From: Rhytidiadelphus loreus
Lineage: Eukaryota > Streptophyta > Bryopsida > Hypnales > Hylocomiaceae
DNA length: 64,000 nt
NCBI GenBank assembly: GCA_947034895.1
Contig: OX344763.1
Span: 47,057,025-47,121,024, forward strand
Direction of reading: 5' to 3'
Shown: one piece after another, positions 3,001 through 33,130 of the stretch
Numbering within the stretch: position 1 is the first letter of the stretch
Layout of the letters: every line of letters begins with the position of its first letter
Position numbers and translations under genes: made by a program
The notes under the pieces: generated by a model
Database searches by the model: none
Told to the model about the DNA's origin: nothing
What the model saw: only the letters and a program-made list of their open reading frames with translations

Positions 3001-3168
3001 TTTGCAGGCGATCCTATAGAAAAAAACAAACAGACCATGTGATACTTACATCCCCGAGTCCTTTGGAAATTGCAATTCCTACCTATGAGTAGTTTCAAAA
3101 AGAAACTGGATTGTAAGATTGGTTTAAAGATCAATCAAAGAAAACTTTCCTTTGACTAGTTCTCTTTC
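1..3168. other. Gene-poor AT-rich spacer
   Basis: No open frame here has recognisable domains, and the short frames are not supported by splice sites or neighbours. The stretch holds a short AAT microsatellite near 1748-1765 and a CACTA-like terminus at 1309, listed separately. I see nothing else I can name. Confidence 0.6.
1309..1345 (+). mobile_element. CACTA-like transposon terminus
   Basis: The sequence CACTACAAGAGAAAGG matches the usual start of plant CACTA (EnSpm) inverted repeats, which typically read CACTACAAGAAA. It is followed by a T- and A-rich subterminal stretch. I did not find a convincing TAGTG partner end, so this may be a solitary or truncated terminus. A similar terminus is present at 62958. 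Confidence 0.45.
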
Positions 3169-6944: not shown

Positions 6945-7326
6945 TTATAGCTATGCTGATTGCCACGGACTGTAGTATATCATGAGTTCCCAATTCCAAG
7001 ATGAATAAATTTCCTCAAGCGAAAATCCTAAACCCTAGTTCGCGAAACGGCTCATTTCTTTTTGCTCAGTCTGTGAAACTCCCATACCAGCTCCTAAGCC
7101 AAAAAAAACCGGGATGAATTAGAGGACCTGCTATTTGAATTGCACTGCACTAATTGCGCAGCAAGATATCATCAATCAACAAATTAATTACTCGCGCTCC
7201 ACAAGCTCCGAAGGAACAAGTGCTAGTCTACTCTCCTATAGTAAGAGCAGGAAAGGTCGATACAACGTTTCTCCTACAACAGTTGACATCTCACCTCCAT
7301 CTTACAATTTCCATCACACTTCCATG
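6945..7326 (+). repeat. Dispersed repeat AB, left half
   Basis: This stretch matches 27057-27434 over about 370 bases with small indels and substitutions, for example the shared TAGCTATGCTGATTGCCAC. It stops exactly where element 1 begins at 7327. Its continuation, the right half, resumes at 25183 after element 1. I do not recognise what the repeat encodes. Confidence 0.8.
7319..7326 (+). repeat. Left target-site duplication of element 1
   Basis: CTTCCATG here pairs with CTCCCATG at 25183-25190 (7 of 8 bases). The empty-site copy has CTCCCACG at 27427-27434. Eight bases is the standard duplication for hAT transposons. Confidence 0.75.
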
Positions 7327-7529
7327 CAGGGTTGATGAATTGGAGCGTCCAGTCCAAAATCACGTCCAAAAAGCGGACGTCCACACGTGACGGACGCGGG
7401 GGACGCTGGGTAAAACGGAGCCGTCCGTCCGATTTACCTCGGGGTAAATTCCGGCGTCGGAATTCCGACGCAGCCTTGGCCGTCCGAATTCCGACGCAGT
7501 CGCAGCTGTCCTCCTAAATTGCAACCCTG
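7327..7529. repeat. Left terminal region of element 1 with CCGTCCGA-type motifs
   Basis: GC-rich stretch starting with CAGGGTTG and packed with GTCC, CCGTCCG and GACGC motifs, in sharp contrast to the AT-rich surroundings. It closes with GCAACCCTG at 7521-7529, so it could be read alone as a 203-bp inverted-repeat element, but its own flanks (CTTCCATG and GTTGAAAC) do not match. Motifs of the same kind recur at the right end and in front of the element's genes. Confidence 0.65.
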
Positions 7530-7868
7530 GTTGAAACAGGATTAACAATCATATCATCATGATCCTCTAGCCTTTCAAAAGCATTTCAATTACCACAAGT
7601 ATGAAGCCAAATTTTTTAATTTTTTTCATCATCTTGCAATATATCATGCTTCATTGTAGAAAAGCAACATACAAATGACACAATCAATTGATATTTTGGA
7701 TTGAAATCATCTTTGGTTAAGTGCCCCCTTCAAAAATAATGGTATTACCACCATCAATAAGTTTAGGAGTATTACAATCAAAGTCTCTAACAATCAATTG
7801 TCAGTACGACAATCAGTGCTTTATATAATATGAGCACATGAACATTTAAGCCTATGTCCTTTCTATTT

Positions 7869-10800
7869 CTAAGGATTGTAATCAAAATCTCCTTTCACCT
7901 CTGCCCCACTACTCTCACACCCATTTCCCAATCTTGCATCTTCGTCGTCGGATGTGTCTTCCATATCATCTGATGAAGAGCCTAGACATGTCGTTCTTCC
8001 CTCTTGTACTTGCGTGGATGAAAGGCTTCTTCTTCGTTTGTCCTTTTTGAGTTCTTCTTTTACTCTTAATAAGGATTTCCCATTTTGTTCCTTAATGCCA
8101 ACAACACTTTTCATTTTCCTCTTTGAAACATGTGGACGTGCATCAAGAGGGTTTCCAATGGCTCTTGTTTTTTTCAACGGGGTATTGCAAAAGGTTGCAT
8201 GACTCTCTTCTTATTGGCTCTAGGTGATCCCCCGCCCTCTAATTTTATTGTAGAGGGCCCTCCACTGCCTCCATGAATGATTATCTTCGGTGAGATTGAA
8301 GATTGTGGTTTAGGCACTGACATTGTTGGGGGCCGTCGTGGTGGTGCATTACGAGAATGCCGAATGAACATTGAAGCCAATGTCTCATCCTTGTCATCGT
8401 CCGTGGACGATAAAATACCTTGACTAGGCCGCCTTTCTTTTGAAATATTTGCAATCTGTTTTCCAAGCCCTAAGCTCCCAACGCCATCCAAAATTTGACT
8501 AGGGGTTTTCAATTGTGCACGTGGAGGGATGCTAGATGGTGGTACTTCAAAATCTTGCATGAGTTCCTTCTTGGCTTCTCCATTGATGCACAAAATTGGA
8601 CTTCTAAACCCCACCACACATAGATAAACATTCTTCTCCGCTTCATTTGCCTTAGGGAATGGAATACTTGGGTGACCACTGTTCGCACTTGCCAATACAA
8701 TGGTTGACTCAACACTCGTGTTGCCAACGTTCATTTTGACATTCACCTCCCAAGGCTCACGTCCTCCCGTGCCGATGTGTTTGTCATTTTCTTCCGCTCG
8801 CAACACTCCTCTAAACGGAGACTCAAGTGGAAAAAGATCTTCATCCATTTTTTGCGTCCCATCATTGGGAATCGTTCTCTCATTGGCCTCTACATAAGCG
8901 TCTTCTTTTTCTGATAGAACTTTTTCGCTACTCATGAACCCACTTCCATCCACAAATCTAGCTATGGAAGGTACATCTTCATCATACCCATCATTATCCT
9001 CATCCAATGGAAAGTCATAGATGTCTCGATCATTGGATCGAAGATCTTCATTGGGCCGACTTGGACTATCGAACATTTCATCATCAAAATTGTGCCCGTC
9101 GTAATTCATGGCATCTTCGTCATCCAATAGAGGCCCAACTGACCTACCATCCTCCTCCTCGTCCGAGATAAACCCCTCTGAATCTTCCGAATCTACGTTG
9201 TCATCGTACCACTTCTTTTCATCCTTTTCCTTTGATGTTGCCAAGACCTTGGAATTGGTGTACACATACACCAAGTCTGCCGCCCTTTGCGTTGTCAACT
9301 TGTTCCGAGATTTGTTGTGAACAAAAGAATAACTACTCCAATTTCGTTCACATGAAGACGAGGATACCGGTTGTGCCAAAATTCGCTTGGCTATTGGAGC
9401 AATGAGCTTTCCACATGCACCTTCAAAATCCCACCAAGCATGCGCCGACAATTGTTGCTCATCCGGATTCAACATGTTGTGAAACGGAGGTTCCCTATGG
9501 CGGAAGGCTACAAATTCTTTTACCACCGAGGCGTACTCTCCTTGTTTGCAAACTTTCATTAGAACACGCTTGCATGCGTCCATTGCATCTTGGTCGTCGG
9601 CTAGATCCTTATCATGCAGAAGGTATGGATTCAAAAGAGCTCCTGCATAATGTAAATTTGTCTCCCCCATTCCACGGCGTTTGAAAAAGGATCGCTCCAA
9701 TGGTTCGGCGAGGTTTGTTGCCAAACAAAAAGGAGGCCCTTCTAGGCTAAGGATATGTTTCTCTAAATTCCTCATAATATGCAACACCTTATCCATGCAT
9801 GGCGTAGACCATATACGACGGGGGCCACCAATTCTCGCAAATTTGTCCACCGATCCCAATAATGCTCCTCTAAAATGAACCTCTTCACATCACGAGACTT
9901 CGTGCGAGATTTGGCTTTGCCATTGTCGTTGAGTGTATTCACATATGCCACCCACTGTGGATCCACCACACTTTGTTGCAATGCTCTTTTGACTTCCAAC
10001 AAACAATCAATCATGATAAACACAGAGGCAAACCTTGTTTCCACCGGCTTCAACAAACTGTACTTTGTCTCATACTTCCGAAATATAGCAAGTGGCATGT
10101 GTCTTTTCTTGAAGAAATTCACTACGATTTGGGCTCTCTTTACCGACTCTTCAATCCATTTCTCCTTTCCCCAATCTTTGAGCAACAAATTCAAGACATG
10201 CACCACGCATCCTTGAAAAAAAATGTGTGGATATTTAGTGGATACCAAATTCCATACTGCCGGATTCACTGGAGCATTGTCTGCGCTCACTTGCACCACA
10301 TTCGTAGGACCCACCTGCTCTATGAATTTTTCTAAAATTGTGGCCAAATATTGTGCTGTTTTTTCCACCCCACTAGTATCCACCGATCCAAGGAATTGCT
10401 CACCCGCTGAAGATACAAGCATGGCATTAATCAGTGGATGGTTTGTAACTGAGCTCCATCCATCAATGGACAATGTTGCTCCAAACTTCCTAATGCTATC
10501 TTCGGTCCTTCTATGCACCTTCCCCACGACATTTGCCTTGGCTTGATCAAGCAATTTATGCCGTAGATCATGATATGATGGCGGAGTGTAGGCCGTACCA
10601 TACTCGAAGGTTTTTTTCACCGCTTCTCTGAAAGCTACGTTTCGGGCCACTGAAAAGGGTATATTTGCCGCATAGAAGAAATTGGCCCACACTACATTCA
10701 AATTCTGTTTTTTTGTTTCTTGAAAGCCATCCAAAAGCCTACTTTGTGTTGGAGGCCTACTGCTTGAGGCCCTACGAATGTCACGTCCGCTACATGTTTG

Positions 10801-11172
10801 CATACTTGGGGTTACTTTGGAACCCTCTCCAACGACTTCTTCCGCTGTTGTACAAGAATCTTCTTGCGTAGAACGTGGCATGCCCCTCCCATTTGACATA
10901 TCGCTTTCAACCATAGGCAAGTTGTTGACATCCACATTTCCACGAACAGGTCTTTGTGGAAATGCCCCATTGCATCGAAGAAATAGACTTCGAGTTTCCG
11001 CTGACAATTTGGGACACAAACTCACTCCCCTATCACGAGAACCGGGAATCGATTCATATCCTAAGTGACTCAACATACGGCTCGTTTTCTTTGAAAACAC
11101 GTTGTTGCAAGCCTTGCATTGTATTTTACTCGCCGAAAGGACGATATACCAAGAGGCAAGATCCTTGCTCAT
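7869..11172 (-). pseudogene. hAT transposase of element 1, frameshifted
   Basis: The minus-strand reading starts at the Met of MSKDLASW. A BED-like finger (C19, C22, H36) is followed by a DUF659-type core with SIDGWSS (D237), SADNAP (D298) and the GCVVH pair (C322, H325). The C-terminal half holds the hAT dimerisation block with CERNWSSYSFVHNKSRN and LVYVYTN near 9350-9250. These features are diagnostic of hAT transposases, which cut and paste DNA in the nucleus and duplicate 8 bases of target. The frame breaks near 9800, after VVYGLRHA: the homologous continuation TPCMDKV is in another frame, probably a small deletion between ACGCCATGC-like repeats. A second shift near 8176, in an A-run, puts a basic and acidic tail (8177-7869) in a third frame. 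Upstream at 11413-11640 is a motif array with a TATA-like box. Confidence 0.85.
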
Positions 11173-11412
11173 GGTCACAAGTTCCAAACTTGAACTTCTT
11201 CAAATTCGCAAGTTTTGGAAAATGTAAACACAAGTGAACCAATGTTTAAAATTGGATTTACGGTCGTGCACAAAGCCTTGAAATTCAAGGCCCCCCTTCC
11301 ACCAAACGATGCATTACCAAGCAAGGGACACAAAATAAATTGCAGCTCCTAGCCCTTGGAAATCGTAGTGTTCAGTGGATTTGGAGTGCCTTCATACGCC
11401 TTGTTTCTTCTA

Positions 11413-11640
11413 CTTATACTTTGCAGCTGAATACAGGTGGCGCTGACCGTTATTCAGAAAGATGAATTTTAAAAACAGTATCAACGGACTCATTCTCCCC
11501 AGAATGGCCCGTCTGATTTGACCATCCCGTCCGAACATTCCGTCGGATCGGGCCAGGCCGTCCGATCGGGCCGTCCGATCGGGCCAGCTCGTCGGAACAG
11601 GCCAACCCGTCCGAATTGGCCGTCGGATCAGGACGTTCGA
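11413..11640 (-). promoter_or_regulatory. Motif array and TATA-like box upstream of the hAT gene of element 1
   Basis: Between about 11500 and 11640 the motif CCGTCCGATC or CCGTCGGATC with GGGCC repeats at roughly 10-20 base intervals. On the minus strand a TATAAGT follows at about 11420-11413, some 240 bases ahead of the transposase start. The same motif family fills both ends of element 1 and precedes genes A, B and K1. Confidence 0.5.
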
Positions 11641-11741
11641 TCTTTTTATCCGGATTCGGGACTTCTCGTAGTTCAGTTTCAAATAGAACTGTTTCACACT
11701 TTCAGCACAAGTGTCCAAGGCTTATCCAAACATTTGGACTT

Positions 11742-11788
11742 GCCTTCTTCCAATCGGGGAGGTCACGGGTTCAAATCCCGGCTCTGAT
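11742..11788 (+). ncRNA. tRNA-like 3-prime fragment (B box)
   Basis: CGGGTTCAAATCCCG forms a five-base T-stem and T-loop with the B-box pattern GGTTCAAATCC. I found no matching acceptor stem or anticodon arm in the 80 bases before it, so this is a tRNA-derived remnant or a SINE piece rather than a complete tRNA gene. Confidence 0.35.
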
Positions 11789-12262
11789 TAATACCTTCAA
11801 GCATGCGAGTGGTGCACAACACTAATTGTGCAAAGCAATACTAACAAGTTTGTAGGAATTGATTAGAGCCTTTTGTGCCCAAAAATTTTGGAGTTCATAT
11901 TTTTGCAATGAAATAATGTTACAATGGAAAAAATACTACATATTCTATGAACAAATCATTATATCATAGCGAAAGAAGAAAAAGCGACATTTGACCAACC
12001 GATTCAACAAACTAGCATGCATTGAAAGATCCATACATATCATGAACATTGGAATACAAATAAATAAATATATTTATATATTTATATATATTTATATATA
12101 TGTATATATAAAAAAGACATACATACGTAGATATTAAAGGCAAAACAAGACATGCCGTGATTACAATTATTTACTACTATTTTCACCTCGTGACATTAAA
12201 ACAAAAGTCTATCGAGTATAGAGTTCTATTTCTTCTATTGCAATAGACCTATTGGTCCATTT

Positions 12263-15200
12263 CTATTTAATTCTATCATTGTTGCCATCTCCCGAACCAC
12301 CAGACAGACCAGAGGACCCCTCTGGATTGCGTTGCGCCACTTGAGCGGCAATCCTTGGACTTTCGCGACGAGAAATTCCCCCAGGGCTTGTTGAGCTTAA
12401 GAACCGTTTTGATTTGGTTGCCCTGTCAACAACGACAAATTGTCGTATTGTTTCCGGAGAATAGTCATCGTCATCTTCAATCTTCCGCTTCTGTTTGCGC
12501 TTCGGAGTCAAATCCACATCCATCGCCTTTAAGGCTCTCAGAGCAGCATCCACTCGATTTACCAACACATTCACCATATGGTCATCACTAGGGTTGTTTA
12601 CCCTAAACCCTTTGGTGACTCCTTCCAATAGGAACGCCCTCCATTGACCTATGATGTCGGCCACCCTCCTATCAAATGCCCCGGCCACCTCCACGAACGA
12701 ATCCCCTTTGTTTGATTCTCCATCCGTTTCCACCTGAACACGAATTGATGCAACTTCTTCCAGCTTAGATAAGAACAGTGCCCTGCCTATGGGAACGTGA
12801 TTGTATGCCTTGTACTGTTCACTGAAGCCAAGAGGATGCTTCACCTCTATCCAATTGCCATCTGGCCCTTTCTGTACTTCTTTTTCGGGAAACCGGAAAA
12901 ATTTATGGTGTTGCATGCTCCAATGCCCTCCCATACTGCGACAAAACAATTCACGAGCCTCGCCATCATCAATGGCACGAGCCCGCAACTCCACTTCCAT
13001 ATTTTGGGTCATCCACATGAAGGAATCCACCGGTTGCATGGATGCATCATACAATTCATGCTTCTGTTCCTTTGGATCCCATATGAGGGATTTCCCCCAA
13101 TGCGAATAATTCTGAAATTTGTATGGCCCTTGGTCAAGTGAAAGAGTCCATCTATTGTATTCGTGGCCGGGGGGCATACCTTCCAAGATGCCAAACATCT
13201 CGTAGAACCTCGGACTCAAAGGAGAACGGCACTCGGCACAAGCGGATCGAAACAGAGATGCTTGCACAACACATTTGATATGAAAAACGTGGCGACAATG
13301 GCCCATGGTGAAGGCTCCTTCAGGCCCAAAAGGACCTTGGCAAATGCTACAATGACCCTTCAACATTTCATTGCCTGGATTAGAACCATGCACAACTATC
13401 TTCTTGTTCTTCTTGATGTATGCTGAAAGCGTTGTGTAAGGAGTCCATCCTTCTTCTACTTCAAAAGTCCAATTGATGTCGCGATTGTGGGCTAGCGATT
13501 CCTTCTTGGCGTGGTTCAACCGCTCGTACATGGCATCCATGTCTCCCCAACATGTCATTGGCATAGACCCCCAAGAATGTTGCTCGACCGCACTTTTGAA
13601 TTTCTTCAAAGCAGCCTCAACGACATTGCAATCTTCATCCGACTTCATTGCAAGGGTGCGAACCCCGATCATTGCCCGAGATGCTAAAGACGGTTTGTCT
13701 TGAAGTTGTTGTATCCATGTTAACTACCGAGACTCCGATCCGCTCGCCGGTAGACATTCATCCATGTTCTCCACTCGTTTCATCCGGTCCAACCTCGATT
13801 GAAGAAGGACATTTTCTTGGTTTACCTCATTCAATCTTCGATTCAACTCGCTCCAAGTTGAAACCTCATCCACCTTTCTGGTCTCAAGCTCCTCCACTGC
13901 TTTGGCCTTCTCAAATGGAAGAGAGAGTTGATCGCTTTCTTGAGTTTCTTGCGACCTCGGTAGTTGGATCTCCACTGTAGAGAGGCCCTTTTCTTCATTT
14001 CGTTCCTTCAAATATTTCTCGCTATACTTCTTCCTTGACGCCACCAATTGCCTTCCCAATGACTCACAATTTTCAACGACCCTTCCATACTTTTTACTCC
14101 ACTCGTCATTCTTCTGCTCCAGCTCCACGATTGTCTTCAAGTAGTTGTACTTCTCATCAAGAAGTGTTAGCGCTCCACTAGCAAACTTGTGAAAAGCCAA
14201 TCCACCCTTCAATAGTGGATGCGATAATGTGGATAAATTTCTGGCCAATTCCATAGCCAACGGGGCCATTTCCGCTACAACTTCAGCAGAACATGTTATT
14301 GCTTGAGCGGATGTCACAAAATCGTGAAGCCCAAGTTTGTTTTCGGTTGCCGTAGAGCACTCGGCCTCGTCCACGGGTTCACCTTCTCTCGATCCATCCA
14401 TTTGAGGTGGGTACTCAACTCCGCACCTAAGTATGATTTCAAGATGCTCCGGATTTGGGATTTGACCCACATATTGCAATCTTCTTGGAGTTAAAGTGCA
14501 CAAGAGCGGATACTTGCGCACAATCTCCTCGCCATCAATATTGGAGGTCGTTGCCACGTTTTGAAGTCGCTTTACGAACAGACCTGACGGTTGAACTTCA
14601 CGGATCGGGCTCAATATTGGACTAGGTGGCGTTGGCGAGTCCACGTTTGGAGGAACGTACTTCAAACTATCGAGAGCATTGCTGTCTATAAGCCGTTCAA
14701 TTGTAGCATTTGCTCTTGCAACTTTGTCTTCATCCATGTCTTCTCGCGACAAGGAAGAGGGGGCAACTTCTTTCACGAGGTTGTGCTTGTTTGGAGCAAT
14801 GCTTTGCTCACCCGTGATTGGTACATGAACCGAGGTGGGTAAACAAGTCTCCGGATCCTTGAAATTGACCTTCCGAAATACACCTCCCGAAGAGGCATTG
14901 GTGGCCTCTGCTCCTAGTTGTGTGGGGTCCAACTGTACTGCGTCGCCTACACCCTGTGAAACCTTCATTGTAGGCGTTCTAGTATTTTTGAATACTATTT
15001 TAGATTCAACCGTTTGTGCCCCGTGGTTGTATAAATCGGGAATATCCTTTTGATTTTTCGAAAGTTGAAGCGGCAATTGCGATGTCGTTGGAAACATGCT
15101 CCAATCCACCTTCCGACCCAATATGAGTTCTGCATACACCATAGATGCCGTGCTGTAATTTATGTATCCTTTACTCCTTGCCTTGTTGCCGAAGAGGGCC

Positions 15201-15517
15201 TTCCACACCTCGTCTGATCGATGTACAAAATGACTATCCTTGCAAGTCCACGGCTTACAATTGAAATATCTTGTGTGGGCTGCGTGGCAATCCCGAGGCC
15301 ACAACTTGTCAATGTGGTACATTTTGACAAATTGTTTGCACATTTTAGAGCTCCAATATTCGGCCTCCACTTTCTCCCAGTCAGGCTCCGCTTTGATGTT
15401 TGGATCATCTAAAATGTCATACTGCAACGCATGTCCGGCCCCCCTTGTTTTAATTTTCTTCGGTGGAGGTTGTGTTGAAGTCGTCCCAATAGCCCCTCCA
15501 TCACCTTCCGCGGCCAT
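12263..15517 (-). pseudogene. Gene A: VDW-block, coiled-coil, RING-H2 protein with one in-frame TAG
   Basis: A single minus-strand frame of 1,085 codons from MAAEGDGG, broken once by TAG at 13726-13724 (codon 598). Residues 60-140 form the block shared with genes B and D: CKQFVKMYHIDKLW, HFVHR, then MVYAELILGRKVDW. Residues about 440-597 are Glu/Lys-rich coiled coil. A RING-H2 finger lies at about 723-763 (C723, C726, C741, H743, H746, C749, C760, C763), followed by FYEMFG and MPPGHEYN, also seen in gene D. The C-terminus is basic with KRKQKRK. RING-H2 proteins are usually E3 ubiquitin ligases; that activity is inferred, and I know no named family with this architecture. The frame on both sides of the stop is intact and homologous to gene D, so I read the TAG as a recent nonsense change, probably from CAG. 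Confidence 0.75.
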
Positions 15518-15729
15518 GCTTGGTACTTTGAATTGAAGAGCAATTCAAAGTAAAAAATTCAGTCAATTGAAATATACGTGTAGGTAATTTAAATCTGCCA
15601 AAGTCACACCGTAATAAAATATGTTGGACCCCTTCTCTCCACCAAGTAAGAGCAACTAGCACTAGAGGCAACAGCAGCACATCTGACTTGGCAAGCTTGG
15701 AGAGAAGAAGTGAAAAGAAATGAAGGGCC

Positions 15730-16030
15730 CGTCTGATCATATAGCCGTCCGAAACCAACCCTAATACCGGTTCGGTTCCGGACCGCGATCCGTCCGACTT
15801 TGGGCCGTCGGATCGGACCTGGTCGTCCGATCGGGCGGACCGAACAGGCCGTTGCTGTCCAATCAGGCCGTCGGAAGAGGCCGTCGGATCGAACACGCCG
15901 GGGCTGTCGGATCAGGCCGTCGGAAGACCAAGTTTCGGAGTCGCCTGCGCCCGATCAGGCGGACCGAACAGGCTGTGGCTGTCGGATCAAGCTGTCGGAT
16001 CAGGCCGTCAGATGGATTTTAGGTCTTCAG
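15730..16030 (-). promoter_or_regulatory. Motif array upstream of gene A
   Basis: About 300 GC-rich bases hold many copies of GCCGTC[CG]GATC and GCCGTCGGAAG, on either strand. They lie 210-510 bases upstream of the gene A start on the minus strand. A weak TATATTT on the minus strand near 15577 is the only TATA-like candidate. Confidence 0.45.
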
Positions 16031-16227
16031 GTCTCCGATCAGGCCATCGTCTCCTCTGCACGGACCTGCTGAACTGTCATCCTCCAGCTGTGTACGCACT
16101 GTTCAAACAACGGATCCTTGAAATAGTTAAATCACTGTAAAAAATAATCAATGAAATGTAAAAAGCATCCAATGTGTGAAAGCTTATTGTTCATTTTCTT
16201 CCCTACATTGTGAGATTGTTTTTAATG

Positions 16228-16259
16228 CTAAACCCTAAACCCTAAACCCTAAACCCTAC
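16228..16259. repeat. Short interstitial plant telomere repeat
   Basis: Four consecutive CCCTAAA units, the plant-type telomere sequence. This is too short to be a chromosome end. It sits inside element 1 between the gene A array and gene B. A shorter stretch of two or three imperfect units is at 49306-49327. Confidence 0.85.
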
Positions 16260-18330
16260 AAATTATTAAATTTCCATATTAAATATTCACGTGTTCAACA
16301 AAAAATTGGTGCAGCATGCGGCATCACTTTTACGATTTCACCGAGTATTCCCACCATCCCAATATCCATTAGTAGCAATTTTGGCTCGCCCCCTATACAT
16401 GGTTACATGGATACATTATTACATTGCAATTTGAAGACATTTATTTTTTTGGATCCACAAAGTACATGACTTCTTCTATGATTTTAAGATATGATTTAAA
16501 AAGTCAATGTGGAAATGTTGGTTGAAAATTGAAATGTAATTTGAATGTAGAGACCATTGTGTAATTGATCCATTGAACTTGTAGTCTACATGTGATAATT
16601 TAAATGTACTATACATGTGAACCTTGTCGACTAATTAGTTATTCATTTCTATGTTTCCGGGTATGAATTATTACATGGCACCGTGGAAATTGCAGAAGTG
16701 AAAGGTTGTCCCACAAAATTGACAATTGAATATGATGATCACTCATGTACAAGAATTAATAGAAGGAGAACGTCACATATGATCATTTGAAAGTTTTTTA
16801 TTTACTTGTAAAATGTACTACTCATTCATGAATTCATGACATTGTAATATGGAAAAAATTTCACCATATACCCTATATTGATATTTTTTTTCATTTCATT
16901 AAGAAGGGGGAGAGAGGGGCCAACTTGAAGGCCTTCACCAATTTTTCTAAAGTTGAATTCATTAATCTATTAATTTAGGTTTCATTAATTATATGTATGA
17001 CGAAATGTTAAGCTTTCATACCTTGCAGTATTGCACAAAAATGTATTATATTATAGAATTATGGATAATCTCTTTATTCAAAGTTCTAGCCTATTAGAGC
17101 ATGTTCTTGAGTGTTGCCAAAATAAATCTATAAATCGGTAGAGTTCATTTCTGCATGCAATTGCTAGTGAGATTGATAACTATTAACTAGAAAAGAAGTT
17201 CTACATGTTTTTGTGGAACTGAAAGAGAGTGGGCACATTTGAGCACAAAATAAATATTTCTTCAAATAAATTATGGAAAGGTAGTTTTTCTACTTTTACA
17301 TGGTCAACAATTATGGAATCTCTCTTTCTTTACTCAAAAAATGCAGTTGTAAGTGCCCCATAAGGCCATAACCGTCTTGAGGGGTGCACTTAGTTCTACT
17401 ATATTACTATAACAAATCACGTGTGAACAAGTGGTTCTCTAATAAACTATAATTTCAACCTAAAATTTTGAACATTGTTTAATAATGACTATAGCTTTCT
17501 ATTGCCAAAATTTCCAACTCAAATAAAATATGAAATGATTTCTAGAAGAGGTTGAAACTTGAAAATGAACTAAAATGGCATGTTTTTCAATTGAAATAAT
17601 TATAGAGGACACATTTAGATGACCATTGAGTCAATATTCAATTCAAAATGAGCTTTCAATAATGAGTTATTTTTAGGAATTTTTGGTTCATTTTTTAGAC
17701 AATTTTCTTTTATATAATAGAGGGGTGTGAAAGCTATTTTTCAGTTCTACAGTGTATCTTTTTACTTCAAAAATTCGTAACTAATTATTATTAACAAATA
17801 AAAATATCAATAATTCAAAACATAAACTTTTAAAGTAGGAAAATCTATTCATATTTTTTTAATTTTGTTTTATTTAAAATTCAAAAAGTATATAGGGGGT
17901 CCAAAGTTTTGTTCGCACTTGGTTTCTAATGGACACTCTAAATGACCCCCCGAGATAAGCGTAGTTCATGAATTTCTACAATTATTTCAAGAAAGCGAAT
18001 TAGAGGATGTACATGATTTATCCAAAAAATTACGCATTTTGAAGCAATGGGATCCTAATTTTTCAAGGGCATAGCCAAACCCTCATGAATTTGGGAATTC
18101 AAAAATTCCCTACTTCTTTCTTCTTATTATTTTCCTTCTACATGTTATACAAGGGTTTAGTGTGTTACAAGCAACATTTTAGATCATACGGTTCAGTTCC
18201 AAAAATTTTTACGTGCTCACAGGGGGGGCCAAAAAAGGGTACACTGAATTGCCCCCTTCGTTGCCCCTGCTGCAGGGCAAAGCCTGCAATTTCGAAAGGG
18301 GCAAAACTTCCCTTGTTCTCCAAAATTCTC
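16260..18330. other. AT-rich interior of element 1, no gene seen
   Basis: Over two kilobases of AT-rich sequence between the divergent genes A and B with no supported frame. Near 18170-18200 there is one partial copy of the TACGGTTCAG-type module described at 23930. Confidence 0.6.
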
Positions 18331-18334
18331 CTCG

Positions 18335-18523
18335 CCGGACGGCCCCTCCGCCCTTCCGACGCCCCGTCCGACTTTCCGACGCCCCGTCCGAGCTGTTCGT
18401 CCGCACTTTCTCGGTGACCGTGCGATCCATCGTGCGACAATTTCGGGCCGCACGATGGGGGCGTCGGAAAACAAGCCGTCGGATTCGGACGGACCCTAAA
18501 GCGCCATCGAAAGCCATAAATAG
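18335..18523 (+). promoter_or_regulatory. Motif array and TATA-like box upstream of gene B
   Basis: GC-rich stretch with repeated GCCCCGTCCGA, TTCCGACG and GTCGGATTCGGACGG motifs, followed at about 18516-18523 by CATAAATA. The gene B start lies 300 bases further on. The order array, TATA-like box, leader, start codon is the same as for K1 and K2. Confidence 0.5.
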
Positions 18524-18823
18524 CGTTTCCGACGCCTCATTTTTCCACAGACGTTTCCCTCCCGAAGTGGGTTTTCCAGTGCCCGATGTGAATCTGTGGC
18601 TCTGCGCACCCCTTTCGGTTTGGTGTGTGAACGGTTGTGCTTGGATACTTGGTGGTTTTAAGTGATGTGGTTTGAATAATTTCTTGTATACGAGGAATTG
18701 TGAATTAGAAAACCGTTTCACTCCATTGCATTTGAATTTTGAAGTGAGAAGCACTTGGTGCACTTGGTGCAATATTTTGGGAAAATTCGGACATCAATTA
18801 TCTTCATTGTAATCAAGGTTATC

Positions 18824-19828
18824 ATGTCTCGCCCTAAACCATCAAGTAAGAGTAAGAAAGGGAAATCTCAAGATATGAATTGGGTTGACTGGGAAAACCC
18901 TAATTGCGTAGCTGAAGATGGATGGGAAGAAGAGCCAAAGAAAGTTTGGGACTGCACCACATGCAAGAAGTACGTCAAGATGACTCACCTCTCCAAAATG
19001 TGGTCACGAGAACGTGTTGAAGGCCAAGTTCGTCGATGGGAAGGACAAATGTCCACATGTACGAGCCGACACTTTCTTCACCGTTACGAAGAAGTAACGC
19101 GTTCAACGGGTTTACGTGACTCCAAACCTAATATAATGAATTATCCTAACATGGCTATGGTTTGGGCAGAGATTGTACTCCACAAAGATGTGGATTGGTG
19201 TACCATTTATGGGAAACATTTGGATAGTCTGAATCGGAATGATGCAATGATTTATACTAGCTGGACTACTGTAAGTGATTGCCAGCCAGAGTGGTCCAAT
19301 CGAGGGCAGTTTGGATTTCCTGCAGTTGTGGTGCCACATGGAGAAGATGAATGGTCGAGTGACGGTGATGAGGGTGAAGCTCCAGCACCAGTGACATTGG
19401 GAGAGGAGCACGAGCGTAAAAAAGATCGAGAAGACATTGAATACGAACAACAAATGCAAGAAGCGATGCGTAGAAGCGTAGAGGACCATGGTCGACAAGA
19501 TGGGTATGATGGATTCTACCAACGTGACCGTGGTGCATATGACCCACCACATGGGTCCTATAGTTCACACTATGGCCATGACCCCCAACATGGCTCTCAA
19601 AACGTTGGAGGCTCTTATTATGGCGGTTCAACTCAAAGAGGATCACTCCACGGTGATTCAATTCCTCCTCCAACTTTTGGAGGTCATTCCTCCGCAAATT
19701 ATGGACAAGGAGGTGGGCAAAGCGGATATGTTCCCGACTACTATGGTGGAGGACCATATCTCGGTGTTTATGGTGGTGGTCCTACAGGCCCAAGTCAGAG
19801 AGATGACACGGATTCAGATTCCGAATGA
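18824..19828 (+). CDS. Gene B: VDW-block protein with Gly/Tyr/Ser-rich tail
   Basis: A 334-residue protein from MSRPKPSSKS. Residues 47-130 align with gene A: CKKYVKMTHLSKMW, HFLHRYEEV, then MAMVWAEIVLHKDVDW (VDW at 123-125). Instead of a coiled coil and RING, the chain continues through an acidic and Arg/Glu-rich middle (about 195-245) into a low-complexity tail of Gly, Tyr, Ser, His and Pro (about 245-325) ending in DDTDSDSE. Such tails often promote condensate formation; that is inference. The frame is open further upstream to 18755, but 18824 places the start after the leader and in front of the basic N-terminus. I see no internal stop. It has a promoter array and lies just ahead of K1 on the same strand. 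Function unknown; the shared block may be a protein- or DNA-binding module. Confidence 0.7.
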   Translation: MSRPKPSSKSKKGKSQDMNWVDWENPNCVAEDGWEEEPKKVWDCTTCKKYVKMTHLSKMWSRERVEGQVRRWEGQMSTCTSRHFLHRYEEVTRSTGLRDSKPNIMNYPNMAMVWAEIVLHKDVDWCTIYGKHLDSLNRNDAMIYTSWTTVSDCQPEWSNRGQFGFPAVVVPHGEDEWSSDGDEGEAPAPVTLGEEHERKKDREDIEYEQQMQEAMRRSVEDHGRQDGYDGFYQRDRGAYDPPHGSYSSHYGHDPQHGSQNVGGSYYGGSTQRGSLHGDSIPPPTFGGHSSANYGQGGGQSGYVPDYYGGGPYLGVYGGGPTGPSQRDDTDSDSE

Positions 19829-21220
19829 AGCCGAATCAAACACTAATACACTATTGTATTGTTTGTCTTACAATATGGGCTCTAAATTTAGATTTAGTTG
19901 TTTTCCATACAATGATGCAATATAGAATGTAGCAAGCATAGTGTAATGGTGTCAATGAGTGGTCGTCCGTCGTCACGTACAATGCAAAACCGCTACAATT
20001 GCGATGTATTGAAATATATTATTAGAATGATAGATTTCTCATGTTCATGGTATTATTGAATGCCATTGCTATGCAATGGATCAAGCCATGGTGTTCTGGA
20101 AGCTAAGTATAGCAATGGCCCAGCTTTTACCATTATATTTTTGTTGGTGTCCGTGCGCAAATTTTTTTGCACCATAACCTATTAACTTCTAAATGGGTGA
20201 GACCGAGCAACCCAAAAAATCCACTAGAAATTTGAATCAAAAATGATTTTTTTTTTCTTGTATATTATATTGGATTTTTCTAAATGGGATGCTTTTATTC
20301 ATTCCAATTGGATTCATGATGCAAAAGTTATGGATTTTCTTGTTTTGTGGGCTATCATAGGATTATCTTGAAAGAAATTCTTTTCTTCCACTTGGAATGC
20401 TAATTCATGATTTTAAGTTACAAACTTTGAATGTTCATATCGTGGAAAGTATAATCTAAATGAAAAATTTCATTATATCATTAGCTTGAGTGAAGAATAT
20501 TGCATGCAAATTGTCCATTTGTTTCAAGCAAAAAAAAAAAGAATATTGGATGCATTGGTTTAAAAGAAATATTTTTATTAAAATAAATAAAAATCTCCAT
20601 ATAAACTCTTCGAAATTGTTGCAAAAATGTGAGTCCGAAAAGGGGCTTCTTAGGAAGTAAAGGATTAACCCTTTAGGGCCTAAGGAGCCCCAAGCAAACT
20701 CTTGAATTCTTTTGGAATCAAATTTTCATATCAAAATTTTATCATTTAATTTAAGTTATTATTTTTCACAAATAACCATTCATGTCTTCTATCAGATCTG
20801 AATTTTTAATATTTTTTGGGAAAAAAATGAAATTTATAAGATTTTCTAGAGTTTCTATCTTTGAAAAATCGTAGTAATTACAAAAGAGCTCACTTTACGA
20901 TGAAATTTTTATAGAAAATAGGAAAAATTATAATGAACATTATGGTGAAGTTTTCATGCTCCCTTTCGTTATATACAAATAAATTTGATAGAGAAACATG
21001 TCCCACAGTGTATTTTGAAACTTTTTAAATCCCAACTTCAAATTGCCATAGATAAGTCATTATTACTCCAAATTTGATGGCCAATGGCTCATTGGAAGCG
21101 AAATTCCCGTGCCCTCACATCTCATTTACACCTCACAGTCAAATGAGGTTAGGAAAGTGTTTTAATTTCCAAAATTCTGTTTAAAATGACCAAATTTGGC
21201 ATGCTCGCCCCCCCTACAGG
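19829..21220. other. AT-rich spacer between gene B and K1
   Basis: No coding frame is supported. It holds short A- and T-runs and, near 20665-20690, the motif CCTTTAGGGCCTAAGG, which resembles the end of the modules at 24112 and 61250. Confidence 0.55.
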
Positions 21221-21234
21221 GTTAAGGGGTGAAA

Positions 21235-21494
21235 ATACCATTTATCGGAGCCGTCCAATCTGTCGGCCTGCCGCGCCGTCTGATCTGTTGAACTGCCGTG
21301 CCGTCCGATCTGTCAAACTGCCGCGCCGTCCGATCTGTCGTCCTGCCGCGCTGTCTGATCTGTTGCACGGCAGCCCGTCCGCCTCGCGGGGGTCGTCGGA
21401 TCGATCGGCCGTCCGATCTGTCGGCCGCGTCGTGGGCGTCGGATTTCCGACGCGGACCGTGCATCGGAAAAGGGCGTTGGAAAGGTATAAGAGA
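21235..21494 (+). promoter_or_regulatory. Motif array and TATA box upstream of K1
   Basis: A run of GCCGTCTGATCTGT and GCCGTCCGATCTGTC units spaced about 20 bases apart at 21250-21430 is followed by TATAAGA near 21486-21492. The K1 start codon is 235 bases downstream. The repeat units happen to be open in frame with K1, which makes an artificially long N-terminus possible from 21186; I reject that start. Confidence 0.6.
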
Positions 21495-21725
21495 GTCGGA
21501 CGGGCCCGTCCGATCCTCACTTTTGTTTTCCCCCTTGCATATTGCAAGAGTGAAGCGGAGAGCTTGGTGGTTCATGCCCCCATTGGTTCCTCTTTTTGGG
21601 AAAGCAAGAGTGCGATTTTGGGGGCCCCTTATTGCCATTTTTTTCAGTTTTGGTTCGAGTTTCACTTGAACTTGAAATTATCATTTCATTTTGCGAATAT
21701 TCATTCGTACAAGAAGTTCATCACG

Positions 21726-23222
21726 ATGCCACGAACAAAGAAGGCTGCAAAGAGGAAACAAATGGAGCATGAAGGAGGTTCACACAATGAGGCAAGTAGG
21801 GACATTCCCTCTGATGCATGCAAGAGATTTTTGATCAAGTTGATCGTCAATTTCTATGAGTCGGAAACGACGATGTCACTACACAACAAATACGTTAGGT
21901 ACAACGAGGAGTGCTCGCAAAAATTCAAGGCGGACATGTGGCAACTGATGATGAATGCGCTTAGCGTTCCGGAATGGCACCACGAGACGGAGAAGAAAGG
22001 CTTTCCAAAATTCTTGGAGAATAGGGTCCATGATGCATTGTGGAATGCATCAATGGTGCTAGCAAGGTACGGCTCTCAATATCGGGAAAATGATGAGGAT
22101 TTTCGTGAAGTCATTCTGAAAGCTGACTTGTTTGTTGCACGATGCAAGCCGTTTGTAAAGAGCCGTAACAGACGAGGATCTTTGGGTTGGTGGAATAGCA
22201 CTGATGGAGTGGCTGAACTGGATCGGGGCAGACAACACCTCATAGCGCTTCCCGACACAGCACGAGTAATCGCTCAAGACCAAAAAACCATGAAGGGTGG
22301 ATATGCAACAATTCGTAGGGTTCGAATTGAAGGGTGTCTAGGGATAGCTACATTTTGGGAGTTTGCAGCAAAGCTATCCAATCAACACCGCACATAGCCT
22401 CATCTTGCGAGATTGGAACACCAGAACGAGTCAATGGCAGTGCGGATTCCACATCCTGGAGTTATACGGTTTGCTGCAGTTCATGGAACAACAAATGAAA
22501 GGTATTCGTATTGGTGGAATGGCGGAACACTACGGCACATGATGCACTTGGATAATGATTATCCAGACAACATTGCCATTCGGTTGCACTATTCGAGGCC
22601 AACAGAGGTAGAGTTGATTGAAACTTACCGTCTCGGACGATTTAAGAAGAAGCGCACGCAACTCGCATGGGCATTATTGCACATCATGAATGCAGTGCAC
22701 ATTTCTGGACATCTTCACAATGACATCTCTCCAGACAACATAATGTTTCACTTTCCTGAAGACGAGTCACGCGTGTACATTGGAGTCTGCGATTGGGGCA
22801 TGACTACCGTAGCTTCTGAACCAATGAAGTCTTTGTACACGTTTACATGTGCGAGGGACATGGAGGAGGCTTTGAGAAAGAGGTGGTGGGTGGACCCGAA
22901 GATTGCATATGTGCACAAAAGAGATGCAGATGGGTCAATCATTCCAAATCTATCACGTGTATCAGAAGAATATGTGGTTTGTAAACTCGCTCAACGCATC
23001 AACAAGGATTGCATGTCTGAAGAATACTACAAGTTGCATCGGGAATCAGCTGAACTGATGAAGTTGAGTCACCACGTTTTGGCCCTTATGTTTCACTCAT
23101 ACATGGAGCGGCCTTGCAGTGAAGGTTCGAATTACCGTGGCGGTTTGTCTCACATCATCAATTTCTTTTCCGGTCGGTGCAATTGGCTTGTGCCGGATGA
23201 GCACTTCCGCCATTCATATTAG
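21726..23222 (+). pseudogene. K1: kinase-like protein with one in-frame TAG
   Basis: A frame of 499 codons from MPRTKKAAKRKQ, broken once by TAG at 22395-22397 (codon 224). Before the stop is a helical N-terminal part with VNFYES and YNEE, shared with K2, then a glycine-rich loop (MKGGYATIRRV) and a possible ATP-site Lys in EFAAKLSN. After the stop come HPGVIRF, YWWNGGTL, the catalytic loop HNDISPDNIM (H331, D333, N338) and CDWG (D356). These are protein-kinase landmarks, with HND for HRD and DWG for DFG. No APE motif is visible, so the C-lobe is degenerate and substrate binding doubtful. It is the last gene before the right end of element 1. Whether it phosphorylates proteins, and which, cannot be told. 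The stop splits the N-lobe, so no full kinase is made unless the TAG is read through. Confidence 0.75.
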
Positions 23223-23929
23223 TAGTTCAACGTACTTTATAGTAGCATAGAACTATAGAGGTATGTAGTAAATATATAATGAGGATGTACGCGTGCACAC
23301 TATATAGTGCCTAATTATGCAATGTAGATGTATGACCATATATGTGGAATATGATAATTATACATTTTGAAAGTTCGGTGTATTTGAGTAAGTAATGCTT
23401 ATGATTTTTTGTCACATGAAACTATGAAAGATACATATGACTTGAATGAAAAGCGCACTACTTGTTGTTGTTGAATGCTGAGGTGGCAATTAGCAAGGGT
23501 GTGTGGAGATTGTTTTCATTTTAAGCTTTATAAACCCCATCGTCCAAGCAGCTTCAAACTTCAGAAGGTCATAGGAATCTCAGATTTTGAAATTTTCCCA
23601 AACAAAAATTTCTTGCTTGTCAAATATAAGTATGCCTTTGTATCCATCGTTCGGATTTTCAAAATCTCAAAGTATGTGGTGGGAAAACTGATTCAAAGAT
23701 GACTTAGTGCATTGTCAATATTTGGGACATTGTGGCATAATGGCATTGCAAAATTTTTTTGGAGGTGTTAGGTGTGTTGAATTTCTTTGAAAATTGGTAT
23801 GCATATGCCCAACTTCAATACCTACAAGAAATTTTTTTAATTTTATGGTGTGTAGTGCAAAAAAATTGAGCATGAGGCGGTCAAAGGCATCTGAAATTTT
23901 GGGGCATAGTGAAAAAAAAAAAAAAAGGA

Positions 23930-24130
23930 CTTTGAATGCAAATATCTCTTTATCCGTACGGTGAAAAATCCCAAAAAGTTTACCACACCCTCTCATACAA
24001 GTTCACTTCAAGATCTTACGGTTATATTTTCAAAGAAAACATTTTCACAACATCGTGAATGATCGCAGCTGGAATGGGAGTTTTCAGTGATTTTGGACCC
24101 AGAAAATGGCTCGGTCCTTTAGGGCTTAAG
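23930..24130. repeat. Conserved noncoding module, copy 1
   Basis: The order CTTTGAATGC, then ATCTCT, CGTACGGT, GATCTTACGGTT and finally GGTCCTTTAGGGCTTAA recurs at 54980-55200 and 61060-61265, in the same order. A partial copy lies at 18170-18200. Each full copy lies 3-prime of a cargo gene in a hAT element. It does not code for protein in any frame I can support. Confidence 0.5.
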
Positions 24131-24780
24131 AAAGAAATGGTTAGAATAAAAATGCGTTGAATTCTACAGTTGGGAATGATACAGAATTTTTAAGAATTTT
24201 AATTTTTTTCGAAGTCAAATTACTTTTATGAGTTCAAATGGGGATTCTTTCAGTACTCCCTAAAGTACAAGAATGGGTTAATTTTTGGGCCTAAATCCTT
24301 GTTAATTAAAAAAATGACATTTCTATAAAACCCTAACAAAATAGTACCATCGTGCATTTCGACGCTATTTAGTATTTAGACCTTGTACCTTTTTCTTTTT
24401 CTTTTTGTTAGAATAATTTCCATGACCGTCAATAGGGACCTTAAACAAAACTTATTGTATACTAAAGTTCAACAATGGGTTCTATTTCTTTTCATAGCTC
24501 ATTTGAACCCCTAAAGGACAAAGCGTCCCTTCCATTGACAAATGGATTTCAGGTTGATACCTATGGGCTGAATTTGTCTCCTGATTTTCTTAAATTTTTT
24601 TTTAAGATAGAAAAATGGAAAACCTTTGTGAAAATATAATTTTTTTCTCAATCGGTAACCCTCTACAAAAGTTATGCCCATGTAACTCAAAACTTGGGAG
24701 ATCAGGCAACACAAAGATTTTTCAAAATTAAAATTTTTTATTTCTAAATTTTTTTAACTCATACATTATACTTTTGTCAA
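24130..24780. other. AT-rich stretch before the right end of element 1
   Basis: No gene is seen. The segment around 24560-24690 (ATGGGCTGAATTT ... AATCGGT ... AAGTTAT) resembles 54475-54600 in element 2, another piece of shared noncoding sequence between the two hAT elements. Confidence 0.45.
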
Positions 24781-24784
24781 GGAA

Positions 24785-25182
24785 AAGGGCTGGATTAAGC
24801 CAGGCCGTCGGATCAGGCCGTTGGATCGGATGTGGCCATTCGATCAGACCGTCGGAAGACCATACCCGATTGGACCGTTCGATTAGGCCATCGGATCGAA
24901 CCTGGCCGTCAGATCAAACCTGGCCGTTGGATCGGATGTGGCCATTCGATCAGACCGTCGGAAGACCATACCCGATTGGACCGTTCGATTAGGCCATCGG
25001 ATCGAACCTGGCCGTCAGATCAAACCTGGCCGTCAGAAGAGGCCGTCCGATTAGGCCGTCCGATCGGTCAGGCCGTCGGAAGCCCCGGACAAGGTAACTT
25101 TTTATTTACCCTAGGTAAAAAACAGAAAAACTGGACGTCCGGGGGGGTCCGGACGCGGACGCTGGACGTCCTGGTAACCCTG
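24785..25182. repeat. Right terminal region of element 1 with GGCCGTCGGATC-type repeats
   Basis: A dense array of GGCCGTCGGATC, GGCCGTTGGATC and CCATTCGATCAGACC units, including a direct duplication (24821-24902 closely repeated at 24926-25007). It ends in GGACGTCCTGGTAACCCTG at 25182. The motifs match those at the left end and in the promoters of element 1. Confidence 0.65.
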
Positions 25183-25484
25183 CTCCCATGAGCTCCAATT
25201 CAAATGGCTCCAAACCAACTGCCAGAGCAGAGAAACAAGTCAGAATCCTTCTACAAATCCTGCACAAGCGGGCACTGCAGTACTACCCACATTCAGTCAT
25301 CCTAACACAACAGTACGAGAAATCTCCCTCCTTGAGCCCTCAATTCACCACAACAGCCATACGTGCACCCGCAACAGACTGCAGCATGCAGCACCCCTGC
25401 TCTGCAAAAGTTCGCGAGCTTGGGATCAAGGAGTCCCCAACCTCTCTCACCGTATCTATTCCTGCTGGACGCTTGCTCTAGACT
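25183..25484 (+). repeat. Dispersed repeat AB, right half
   Basis: Matches 27427-27728 closely over about 300 bases. It begins with CTCCCATG, the right target duplication of element 1. A frame on the plus strand stays open in both copies (ending SLTVSIPAGRLL and SLTVSIPVGRLQ), so the parent may once have been coding, but I do not recognise it. Confidence 0.8.
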
Positions 25485-27056: not shown

Positions 27057-27728
27057 AATTTATAGCTATGCTGATTGCCACAAACCGCAATATATCATGG
27101 GTTCCCAATTCCAAGTCAAATAAATTTCCTCCACCGAAAATCCGGCACCCTAGTTCACAAAACGGCTCATTTCTTCTTGCTCAGTCTGTGAAACTCCCAT
27201 GTATGTTCTTGAGGCAAAAAAAACCGTGATGAATTCGAGGACTCGCTATTTGAATTGCATTGCACTAATTGCGCAGCAAGGCATCATCAAATAAATTCCT
27301 CGTGTTCCACAAGCTCCGAAGAAACAAGCGCTATTCTACTCTCATGTAGTAAGAGCAGTTAGAGTAGGGAGGGTCGATACAACGTTTCTCCTACAACATC
27401 TCACCTCTGTCCTACAATTTCCATCACTCCCACGAGCTCAAATGAAAATGTCTCCAAACCAACTGCTAGAGTAGAGAAACAAGTCAGAATCCCACTACAA
27501 ATCCTGCACAAGCGGGCATTGGAGTACTACTTCCCACATTCAGTCATCCTAACACAACAGTACGAGAAATCTCCCTCCTTGAGCCCTCAATTCACCACAA
27601 CAGCCATACGTGCACCCGCAACAGACTGCAACATGCAGCACCCCTGCTCTGCAAAAGTTCGCGAGCTTGGGATCAAGGAGTCCCCAACCTCTCTCACCGT
27701 GTCCATTCCTGTTGGACGCTTGCAATAG
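27057..27728 (+). repeat. Dispersed repeat AB, uninterrupted copy (empty site for element 1)
   Basis: The first 378 bases match 6945-7326 and the rest matches 25183-25484. At the junction, where element 1 sits in the other copy, this one simply reads CTCCCACGAGCTC. It therefore serves as a reference for the sequence before insertion. Confidence 0.8.
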
Positions 27729-27934
27729 ACACCCCGCCAGTCACAAAAAATAACTTGTAGGATTCATTTCTGAATGCAATTTTTCAAATTTTTCAATTTT
27801 TTTTTTGCATGGTTTAGTTTACTTATTAGAACAATCTCACCACTAGGATTAGTGCATTTTAATTCCATCTAAAATATATGAATATTTTGGATTTTCCTTC
27901 TATCTTGTACCTATTTTTATTTAACAATTTTTAT

Positions 27935-28352: not shown

Positions 28353-28605
28353 CAAGGTTGTCATACCGGACGGGTTGGAGTGATCGGACGGACGTTGCAG
28401 ACGCTCCGGACACCTTTCATTTTTGAAATTTTCCAACACTGAAATTAGGGCGCGGACATTTCCGTTAGGGCGCAGACGTTTCCATTAGGGCGGGGACATT
28501 TCCGTCACGGCGAGGACGTCTTGGCCAGGGCGGGGACGTCTTGGACAATGCGGGGACGTCTTGGTCAGGGTGGGGACGTCTTGGACAGGGCGGGGACACA
28601 TCAGT
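28353..28605. repeat. Left terminal region of element 2 with GGGCGGGGACGT repeats
   Basis: After the inverted repeat come GGACGG motifs and then at least eight units of a roughly 20-base repeat, AGGGCGGGGACGTCTTGGAC with variants (28447-28605). The same core is found upstream of the hAT gene, D and K2. Confidence 0.7.
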
Positions 28606-28667
28606 TTAATCCGAATTTTTGTAGAATTTTTGTACTTCATTTACGAATTCTTGCTTTCATAGGGTGA

Positions 28668-32190: not shown

Positions 32191-33130
32191 CTACACCCCT
32201 GTACTAAGTACGTCACACTGTAATTTCAGGTCAACCACTGGTACTTCAAGTTGAAAAAACCGTATGCAAATTTTGATGAATTCCACAAATTTTAGCTTCT
32301 GGAGGAGGCCAAATATAATGTTCATAGAATACAAGACAGGATTGCATATGAAGAACCGTTCTTCAAGTTGGAAAAAGTACTTTTCTGGAAAATCAGAAGT
32401 ACGTCACGCAACAACAAAAATGCACAAAAGTACAAAAATCTATCCTAAAAAAAAGGTTCTTTGGGGTGGCACTTCAATGCCATTTTACATGATGGGCGCA
32501 TACAGCAAAATGTTGTTTAAGTTTGTTCAGAAAGTGTAAAGTATCTCATTAATTTGAAAGTAAAGTACAAATTTTTTGGAACAGGAAAACTACATAAAAA
32601 AGATGAAGATTCGCTGATAAGTGCAATGAATGTAGAAATCTTCGGGTGCCTCTAAGATGGCAAAGGTCCAAATCTGGTAAAAAAGAACCCCAAGCCACCT
32701 TAAAAAAAAGTGGTCACACATTCGATTAAGGTACAAATACGTACTAAATGTACCTTCAGTACTTTTCACGATCATTGAGTACTTTTCACGGTCAGATCGT
32801 GCAATCTTCACCGTCAATTTCAAATCACAAAACAGCGGCAACAGAAGTCGCCACCGCCACTCAAGTTTAGGGTTCCGAGAACTAGGCTGCCTTTAGGGTT
32901 CAAGAAGGTCAAAAAGGCACCGGTCTTAAGGATCCAGGTAATAAATCCAGGTAAATATTTGCACTTCCAAAAATGTTACTACTTAAGGTAGAGATTTACT
33001 TCAAAAGGGATTATCGGAGACATGTGCGTAAGTGCCTGTACCCATGGCGCACATTCTAGTTTATAATTCACGGCATACATGTACCCACTGCGTACATGTT
33101 TGTGCGAGTCGCGAGAATTATGTGATGTTT
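32191..33130. other. Left subterminal part of element 3
   Basis: No gene is seen. GTACTT or AAGTAC occurs many times (for example 32201, 32250, 32387, 32397, 32731, 32757, 32785), a motif that also recurs in the introns of the element's genes and near 42400-42500 and 45770-46300. Confidence 0.5.

Follow-up and report, generated by a model that had tools for sequence, protein, structure and literature searches.

A selected, element-intrinsic gene set with a motif-marked layout in large hAT transposons of the moss Rhytidiadelphus loreus

The stretch of DNA analysed here, referred to as the window, comprises 64,000 nucleotides of the genome of the moss Rhytidiadelphus loreus (assembly GCA_947034895.1, contig OX344763.1, positions 47,057,025 to 47,121,024 of the forward strand). 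It contains two large transposons, E1 and E2, in which a hAT transposase gene is accompanied by genes for VDW-domain, RING-H2 and protein-kinase-like proteins. E1 occupies positions 7327-25182 (17,856 bp) and is bounded by the ends CAGGGTT...AACCCTG and by a target duplication, CTTCCATG at 7319-7326 and CTCCCATG at 25183-25190, with 7 of 8 bases identical. A paralogous empty site with a single CTCCCACG, matched in pieces by blastn, lies at 27062-27734 on the plus strand; the abutted flanks of E1 align to this stretch and are 10 bases longer at the junction, corresponding to the 8-bp copy plus CA. E2 spans 28353-61351 (32,999 bp with its nested element) and has inverted CAGGG-type ends, the left terminal inverted repeat being CAAGG and the right one CAGGG, with an 8-bp target duplication (GCTGGCCG/GCTAGCCG) that also matches at 7 of 8 bases. 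The minus-strand transposase gene of E1 (8174-11172) carries a frameshift near 9802, where tblastn alignments of homologues break, and gives Pfam matches to DUF659 (E=1.2e-34) and to the hAT C-terminal domain Dimer_Tnp_hAT (E=6.6e-09), together with a BED-like match below the cut-off (18.2 bits vs 20.6). Its counterpart in E2 (30299-51599, minus strand), delimited from open reading frames (ORFs) and tblastn, is split by the nested element into an N part (50406-51599) and a C part (30299-32168), and the two transposases align in two parts at 32% and 44% identity. DUF659 and Dimer_Tnp_hAT are also found in the transposase homologue P0071. E1 and E2 are DUF659-type hAT elements.

Both elements share one layout, in which the hAT gene (minus strand) is followed by the VDW/RING-H2 gene A or D (minus), the kinase-like gene K1 or K2 (plus) and the right end. 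A previous reading of the window from its letters alone (the sequence-only reading) had reported this common order and strand, along with homology between A and D and between K1 and K2, and had proposed that such accessory genes help the element; the observation is confirmed overall, and the interpretation is supported, as neither of the outcomes that it named as refuting was encountered.

Gene A (12266-15517, minus strand) encodes a VDW domain, long helices and a RING-H2 domain, with a basic KRKQKRK stretch near the C-terminus. It is one gene interrupted by a TAG at 13724-13726, complete A homologues measuring about 1,100 amino acids. Gene D (55873-58242, minus strand), the A homologue in E2, has five premature stops. 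The VDW blocks of A and D are 31% identical over 144 columns (64.7 bits), and the RING blocks, which include the FGPEG and MPPxxEYN motifs, 29% over 227 columns (88.6 bits), compared with a best score of 25.8 bits in a shuffle control (four pairs, each shuffled 100 times); the unadjusted observed scores to be set against the shuffles are 89.4 (A/D), 84.0 (A/B), 45.1 (D/B) and 127.0 bits (K1/K2). Homology along the whole length of A and D, as first described, was too strong a claim, since BLAST aligns nothing in the middle part, which contains the coiled coil; the CKxFVKM motif is likewise missing from D, which reads CITYIEW there. A third VDW gene, B (18824-19828, plus strand), absent from the sequence-only reading, encodes a stand-alone VDW protein of 334 amino acids without stops, whose N-terminal block is identical to A at 36 of 103 residues.

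The eight Cys/His zinc ligands of the RING-H2 domain (C3H2C3) are invariant in all 15 sequences of the alignment, and zf-RING_2 matches at E<=0.01 in all 13 A homologues (in 9 as a precomputed domain), the scores of A (24.0) and of homologue P0058 (26.9) remaining under the 27.3 cut-off. A structure model of P0058 contains the helices, and the structural comparison of the VDW-RING protein returned mainly the RING and helical region, the VDW part being barely covered. The basic C-terminal cluster is present in A and in 10 of 13 homologues, the three others (P0059, P0065 and P0067) stopping short of that point of the alignment. The domain composition indicates that A is a putative RING-H2 ubiquitin-ligase-like protein.

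Gene K1 (21726-23222, plus strand; 498 codons, with a basic N-terminus) is again one gene interrupted by a TAG, at 22395-22397, complete K homologues having about 495 amino acids. Its homologue in E2, K2 (58733-60306, plus strand), contains three in-frame stops, and the two align at 25.5% identity over 447 columns (121 bits); the YNEE motif once ascribed to both reads FNEE in K2. Residues G191, K216, E235, D333, N338 and D356, which are taken here to be the Gly loop, Lys, Glu, Asp, Asn and Asp of kinases, are invariant in 29 of 29 K sequences, and the loops read HND and DWG instead of HRD and DFG. The model of homologue P0006 (predicted local distance difference test, pLDDT, 82) has a kinase fold, its top Foldseek hits being FGFR2 and ULK1 (E about 1e-7, template-modelling score by target about 0.6) with a root-mean-square deviation of 9-10 Å over about 340 columns. 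The name kinase-like is preferred because the second ORF of K1 and P0006 score below the Pkinase cut-off of Pfam (24.8 vs 31.7) and because Pkinase is a precomputed domain in only 17 of 50 K homologues. A basic N-terminus is found in 25 of 27 full-length K proteins. Viral or bacterial relatives were sought in three scans of viral contigs (two with K, one with A) and one of genome contigs (with K), which returned none; viral kinases resemble K by fold only. One K-family entry of Ceratodon purpureus represents a cluster of 126 sequences. An alternative genetic code was considered for the in-frame TAGs and rejected, since the K1 TAG position is Gln in P0006, P0010 and P0011 and Arg in others, other K copies are open there, and variants among copies are overwhelmingly C>T/G>A.

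The module extends beyond the two loci of the window. A search of the moss's own genome with K1 (407,041,205 bases in 489 contigs) yielded at least 87 matches, of which at least 71, window copy included, span the full length with at least 89% identity. No in-frame stop occurs in 40 of these 71. These counts are lower bounds because 86 of 1,152 candidates were scored. At least six further matches, at 68% identity and all six without stops, define a second family. From each family an additional copy was read. The E1-family one, C4, has hAT, A, B and K in E1 order, with insertion-like gaps in hAT and A and no matching target duplication. The second-family element, C5, measures 15,814 bp and carries hAT (minus), A (minus), K (plus) and B (minus), with frameshifts in hAT and A and with B relocated to the right end and inverted relative to E1. 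Short CAGGG-type terminal inverted repeats, as in the hAT superfamily, are present in these elements (the right end of C5 being CAAGG), and the hAT-type 8-bp target duplication found in E1 and E2 is seen in C5 as well, again with 7 of 8 bases identical.

Twelve additional E1-family copies were drawn from the 30 best K1 matches, all with a stop-free K, and were first read 1.8-7.5 kb upstream of K. B was then found in 11 and A in 8, the one copy with neither having a copia polyprotein there; further reading recovered both genes, so that B was found in all 12 copies and A in 9 of them. An open copia-type polyprotein of 1,402 codons lies between B and K of an E1-family copy (L037, G000:C4:58842754-58848454). 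In the second family, A was present in all three additional copies. This co-occurrence is based on the 12 and 3 copies plus C4 and C5, all reached through K1, which leaves room for solitary copies of A, B or hAT. In other genomes, a hAT homologue and an A homologue each lie on a contig of 17,649 bases, and a hAT homologue and a shortened K homologue of 362 amino acids each on one of 27,639 bases; equal length and source suggest that the members of each pair share one contig. No other such coincidence occurs among 50 K, 13 A and 26 hAT matches. The A and K homologues found elsewhere have long open frames.

At the level of sequence, A, B and K sit within the hAT ends and multiplied together with the element. 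On the best explanation, E1 and E2 are members of an ancient clade of large hAT transposons with a standard set of transposase, A and K, joined by B in at least two families. E1 and E2, presented as independent elements by the sequence-only reading, are better regarded as diverged families of one lineage, since deep divergence is seen in hAT, A/D and K1/K2 alike, as expected for one old lineage; the conservation of the accessory genes holds.

Selection on the genes was assessed between families by the ratio of nonsynonymous to synonymous substitution rates (dN/dS), a check that the sequence-only reading had proposed. Between E1 and the C5 family, dN/dS is 0.18 for K, 0.30 for the N-part of A, 0.35 for the RING part of A (196 codons), 0.34 for B and 0.24 for the N-part of hAT, the values for K, hAT and the N-part of A being only approximate because dS exceeds 1. 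The raw pN/pS values between families range from 0.32 to 0.59, compared with 0.96 for a randomly mutated K. A, B and K have thus been under purifying selection between the two families, similar in strength to that on the transposase. These values well below 1, with the co-occurrence in further copies, support the view that the accessory genes help the element. Within the E1 family, 28 K copies (20 without and 8 with stops, two of 30 loci being omitted for length) gave no overall signal of selection. C>T or G>A changes account for 215 of 242 variants, and K copies decay by deamination once inserted; seven stops were seen where about 15 were expected, in copies chosen from the best-scoring matches.

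The non-coding parts of the elements carry arrays of short GC-rich motifs. In E1, arrays lie at the left end (7327-7520) and the right end (24780-25182), and similar ones stand upstream of hAT (11500-11660), A (15720-16030), B (18330-18540) and K1 (21230-21520). In E2, an array of GGCGGGGACGTC type marks the left end (28480-28610), a weaker one precedes the hAT gene (51880-52030), and a third lies beside TATAAAT in the divergent promoter shared by D and K2 (58320-58560), resembling the left end of E2 and unlike its right end (79% by blastn between 28504-28597 and 58375-58473). Inspection by eye shows TATA-like sequences after the arrays at 58.5 and 21.5 kb.

These arrays were quantified as GC-rich 7-base words common to both element ends, counted in promoter windows of 600 bp upstream of the start codon. 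In E1, 86 of 96 internal word matches fall in the windows of its four genes, a number equalled by random windows in 2 of 20,000 draws. The three internal genes of the second family, its B promoter being left out since it coincides with the right end, collect 154 of 241 matches (random, 30 of 20,000). With left-end words, E2 has 162 of 354 matches at promoters (random, 0 of 20,000), two of the three windows, those of D and K2, overlapping. The number of shared words is in itself unremarkable, because random pairs of E1 segments share 7 words on average (maximum 143) vs 21 for the two E1 ends; what stands out is their placement. Throughout the window, E1 words outside E1 reach the threshold only at 53.1 kb, and weakly. 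The commonest words are of CGTCSGA type in E1, CGTCCGC type in the second family and GCGGGGA type in E2, and an array precedes K in 29 of 30 K copies, window copy included. In sequence terms, each gene is preceded by an array resembling the element ends, the resemblance being to both of them in E1 and the second family and to the left one in E2.

An extra array of E2 type lies at 53110-53240, with no adjoining gene noticed; the segment 52057-52263 is repeated at 53301-53514, and the array at 53.1 kb may thus duplicate the promoter of the E2 hAT gene. In the flipped C5 copy (L031/L032/L035), more CAGGG-ended sequence with end-array words is seen just outside the element, at about 801-1560 and 2601-3235.

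The remaining features of the window lie outside the module. The element nested in the hAT gene of E2 (32191-50352, about 18 kb, with CTACACCCC inverted ends) is a different transposon; Pfam returned nothing at E<=0.1 for six of its ORFs. It includes a long AT-rich tandem array with a unit near GGTTCCCCAATAGGATCCCTTTTGCAAATATGCA (34676-37134). Outside E1 and E2, a 242-amino-acid ORF at 3959-4687 on the minus strand has only a sub-threshold AKAP95 match in Pfam.

Plant hAT elements are usually viewed as single-gene transposons; Ac, for example, measures about 4.6 kb and has one gene. The present elements resemble Ac/Ds and other plant hATs in their transposase, short inverted ends and 8-bp target duplications, and differ in their size of 16-18 kb, their four genes and their internal copies of the end arrays. 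A closer parallel in organization is offered by the VANDALs of Arabidopsis (Mutator-like elements, MULEs, with VANA, VANB and VANC), described in excerpts of one report as multi-gene plant DNA transposons with dense arrays of short motifs in terminal, intergenic and intron regions, the motifs varying by family and being read by an element protein (PMC5735166). That protein, VANC, binds to the non-coding arrays of the VANDAL family that encodes it and causes methylation to be lost, according to the same excerpts (PMC5735166). Family-differing arrays in terminal and intergenic regions are likewise present here, the words being partly shared and those of E2 matching its left end only. The elements of the moss are not VANDALs, and at most VANDAL-like in their working, because the transposase is of hAT and not of MULE (VANA) type; the accessory proteins also differ (VDW-RING, VDW and kinase-like), and the array reader is putative. 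VANDALs carrying KIU have an accessory protein (VANC) with a domain of a ubiquitin-like pathway, which in the excerpted text of a review is Ulp1 (PMC13317346), as opposed to RING-H2 here. ToxhAT (14 kb), compared by its description in part of one article rather than by gene content, is also a large hAT-named element with a non-transposase gene, but it is fungal and known for the effector gene ToxA (PMC12506042). For Physcomitrella, the portion consulted of another article records that no hAT was found (PMC6027215).

It is near certain that the window contains a hAT transposon with a motif-marked layout and a gene set that is under selection and intrinsic to the element. The reading favoured here, with a probability of roughly 0.5, is that this gene set works as a regulon marked by motifs, perhaps to counter silencing in the VANDAL/VANC way; the mechanism itself stands at about even odds. 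An element-encoded protein would read the arrays, so that ends and promoters would form one regulon. The most likely reader would be a protein with a VDW domain, which leads the candidates because it is the part common to A and B. The RING protein A and the kinase-like K, perhaps acting in ubiquitin and phosphorylation signalling as their domains suggest, would modify or remove nuclear proteins at the arrays, a nuclear location being suggested by their basic, nuclear-localisation-like stretches. As with VANDAL/VANC, the element would stay expressed and mobile despite silencing by DNA methylation.

The chief rival is that the hAT transposase itself binds the arrays and autoregulates all four genes, A and K tuning the transposase (by RING turnover and phosphorylation) or the host cell cycle and leaving silencing untouched. 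The arrays are subterminal, like the transposase-binding repeats of hAT elements, and their presence upstream of all genes suits autoregulation. In Ac, too, the transposase-binding repeats are subterminal. Subterminal repeats are also reported for Kat1 in excerpts of one study (PMC4763223). Autoregulation, a serious but less probable account, leaves unexplained why a second VDW protein, B, is retained and why no cutting occurs at the internal arrays. Alternatively, the VDW-RING and kinase-like proteins could mainly inactivate host defence factors throughout the nucleus, such as the methylation machinery, the arrays being ordinary promoters. The RING-H2 residue pattern, the kinase fold, the nuclear-localisation-like stretches, the methylation-type mutational decay and an E2 promoter array that matches one end only would all agree with this, but ordinary promoters need not resemble both ends, as the arrays of E1 and the second family do, and such a role is considered improbable.

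Still lower stands a Starship-like cargo serving the host plant: signalling-type domains and the many stop-free K copies speak for it, yet copies decay neutrally after insertion and the same small gene set recurs in all four elements read fully or nearly so (E1, E2, C4 and C5), where no variable cargo was noticed. Plant transposons are known to capture pieces of host genes, as stated in the excerpted review (PMC13317346), and A, B and K could have been captured as passengers helping neither element nor host; this is the least credible of the alternatives and already disfavoured, because the genes are kept across families with dN/dS similar to that of the transposase, their promoter arrays are like the ends, and their homologues in other genomes have long open frames.

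Several observations weigh against a regulon read by an element protein for anti-silencing, beginning with the arrays, which could be transposase-binding sites. B was looked for in E2 and not found, D has no basic C-terminal cluster, and 3 of the 12 additional copies are without A in the stretch examined, one of them even when read 7.5 kb further. The K copies are near-neutral overall, the ratio of nonsynonymous to synonymous variants (N/S) being 160/75 = 2.13 vs 2.09 expected from the spectrum; variants common to several intact copies lean the opposite way (25/18), a hint of older constraint on K. In the comparison between families, K, hAT-N and A-N (2.0) have dS values exceeding 1. Words common to both E2 ends are not clustered at the E2 promoters, yet match E1 arrays, and right-end words of E2 cluster at that end alone, the promoters being tied to the left end only. 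CCGTCCG is common to the arrays of all three families, which are therefore only partly family-specific; left-end words of the second family are clustered immediately beyond its element as well, and one of the 30 K copies has no upstream array. The one-end match of E2 and the partly shared words leave the odds of the mechanism unchanged, because the argument rests on E1 and the second family.

No description of such an element was found in the titles and abstract openings of the literature consulted. With accessory genes kept about as strongly as the transposase, each with an end-like array, the finding makes it testable that plant transposons encode ubiquitin and phosphorylation machinery to control their expression or escape silencing, and offers a second superfamily for the array/protein co-evolution known from VANDALs. 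Moss annotations may list these transposon proteins as host genes. In its fullest and more doubtful form, the proposal is of a hAT lineage with its own sequence-specific anti-silencing regulon, in which the VDW domain would read the arrays and recruit a RING ligase and a kinase that displace or mark host silencing factors; if true, a VANC-like system would have been invented a second time, independently, through ubiquitin and phosphorylation.

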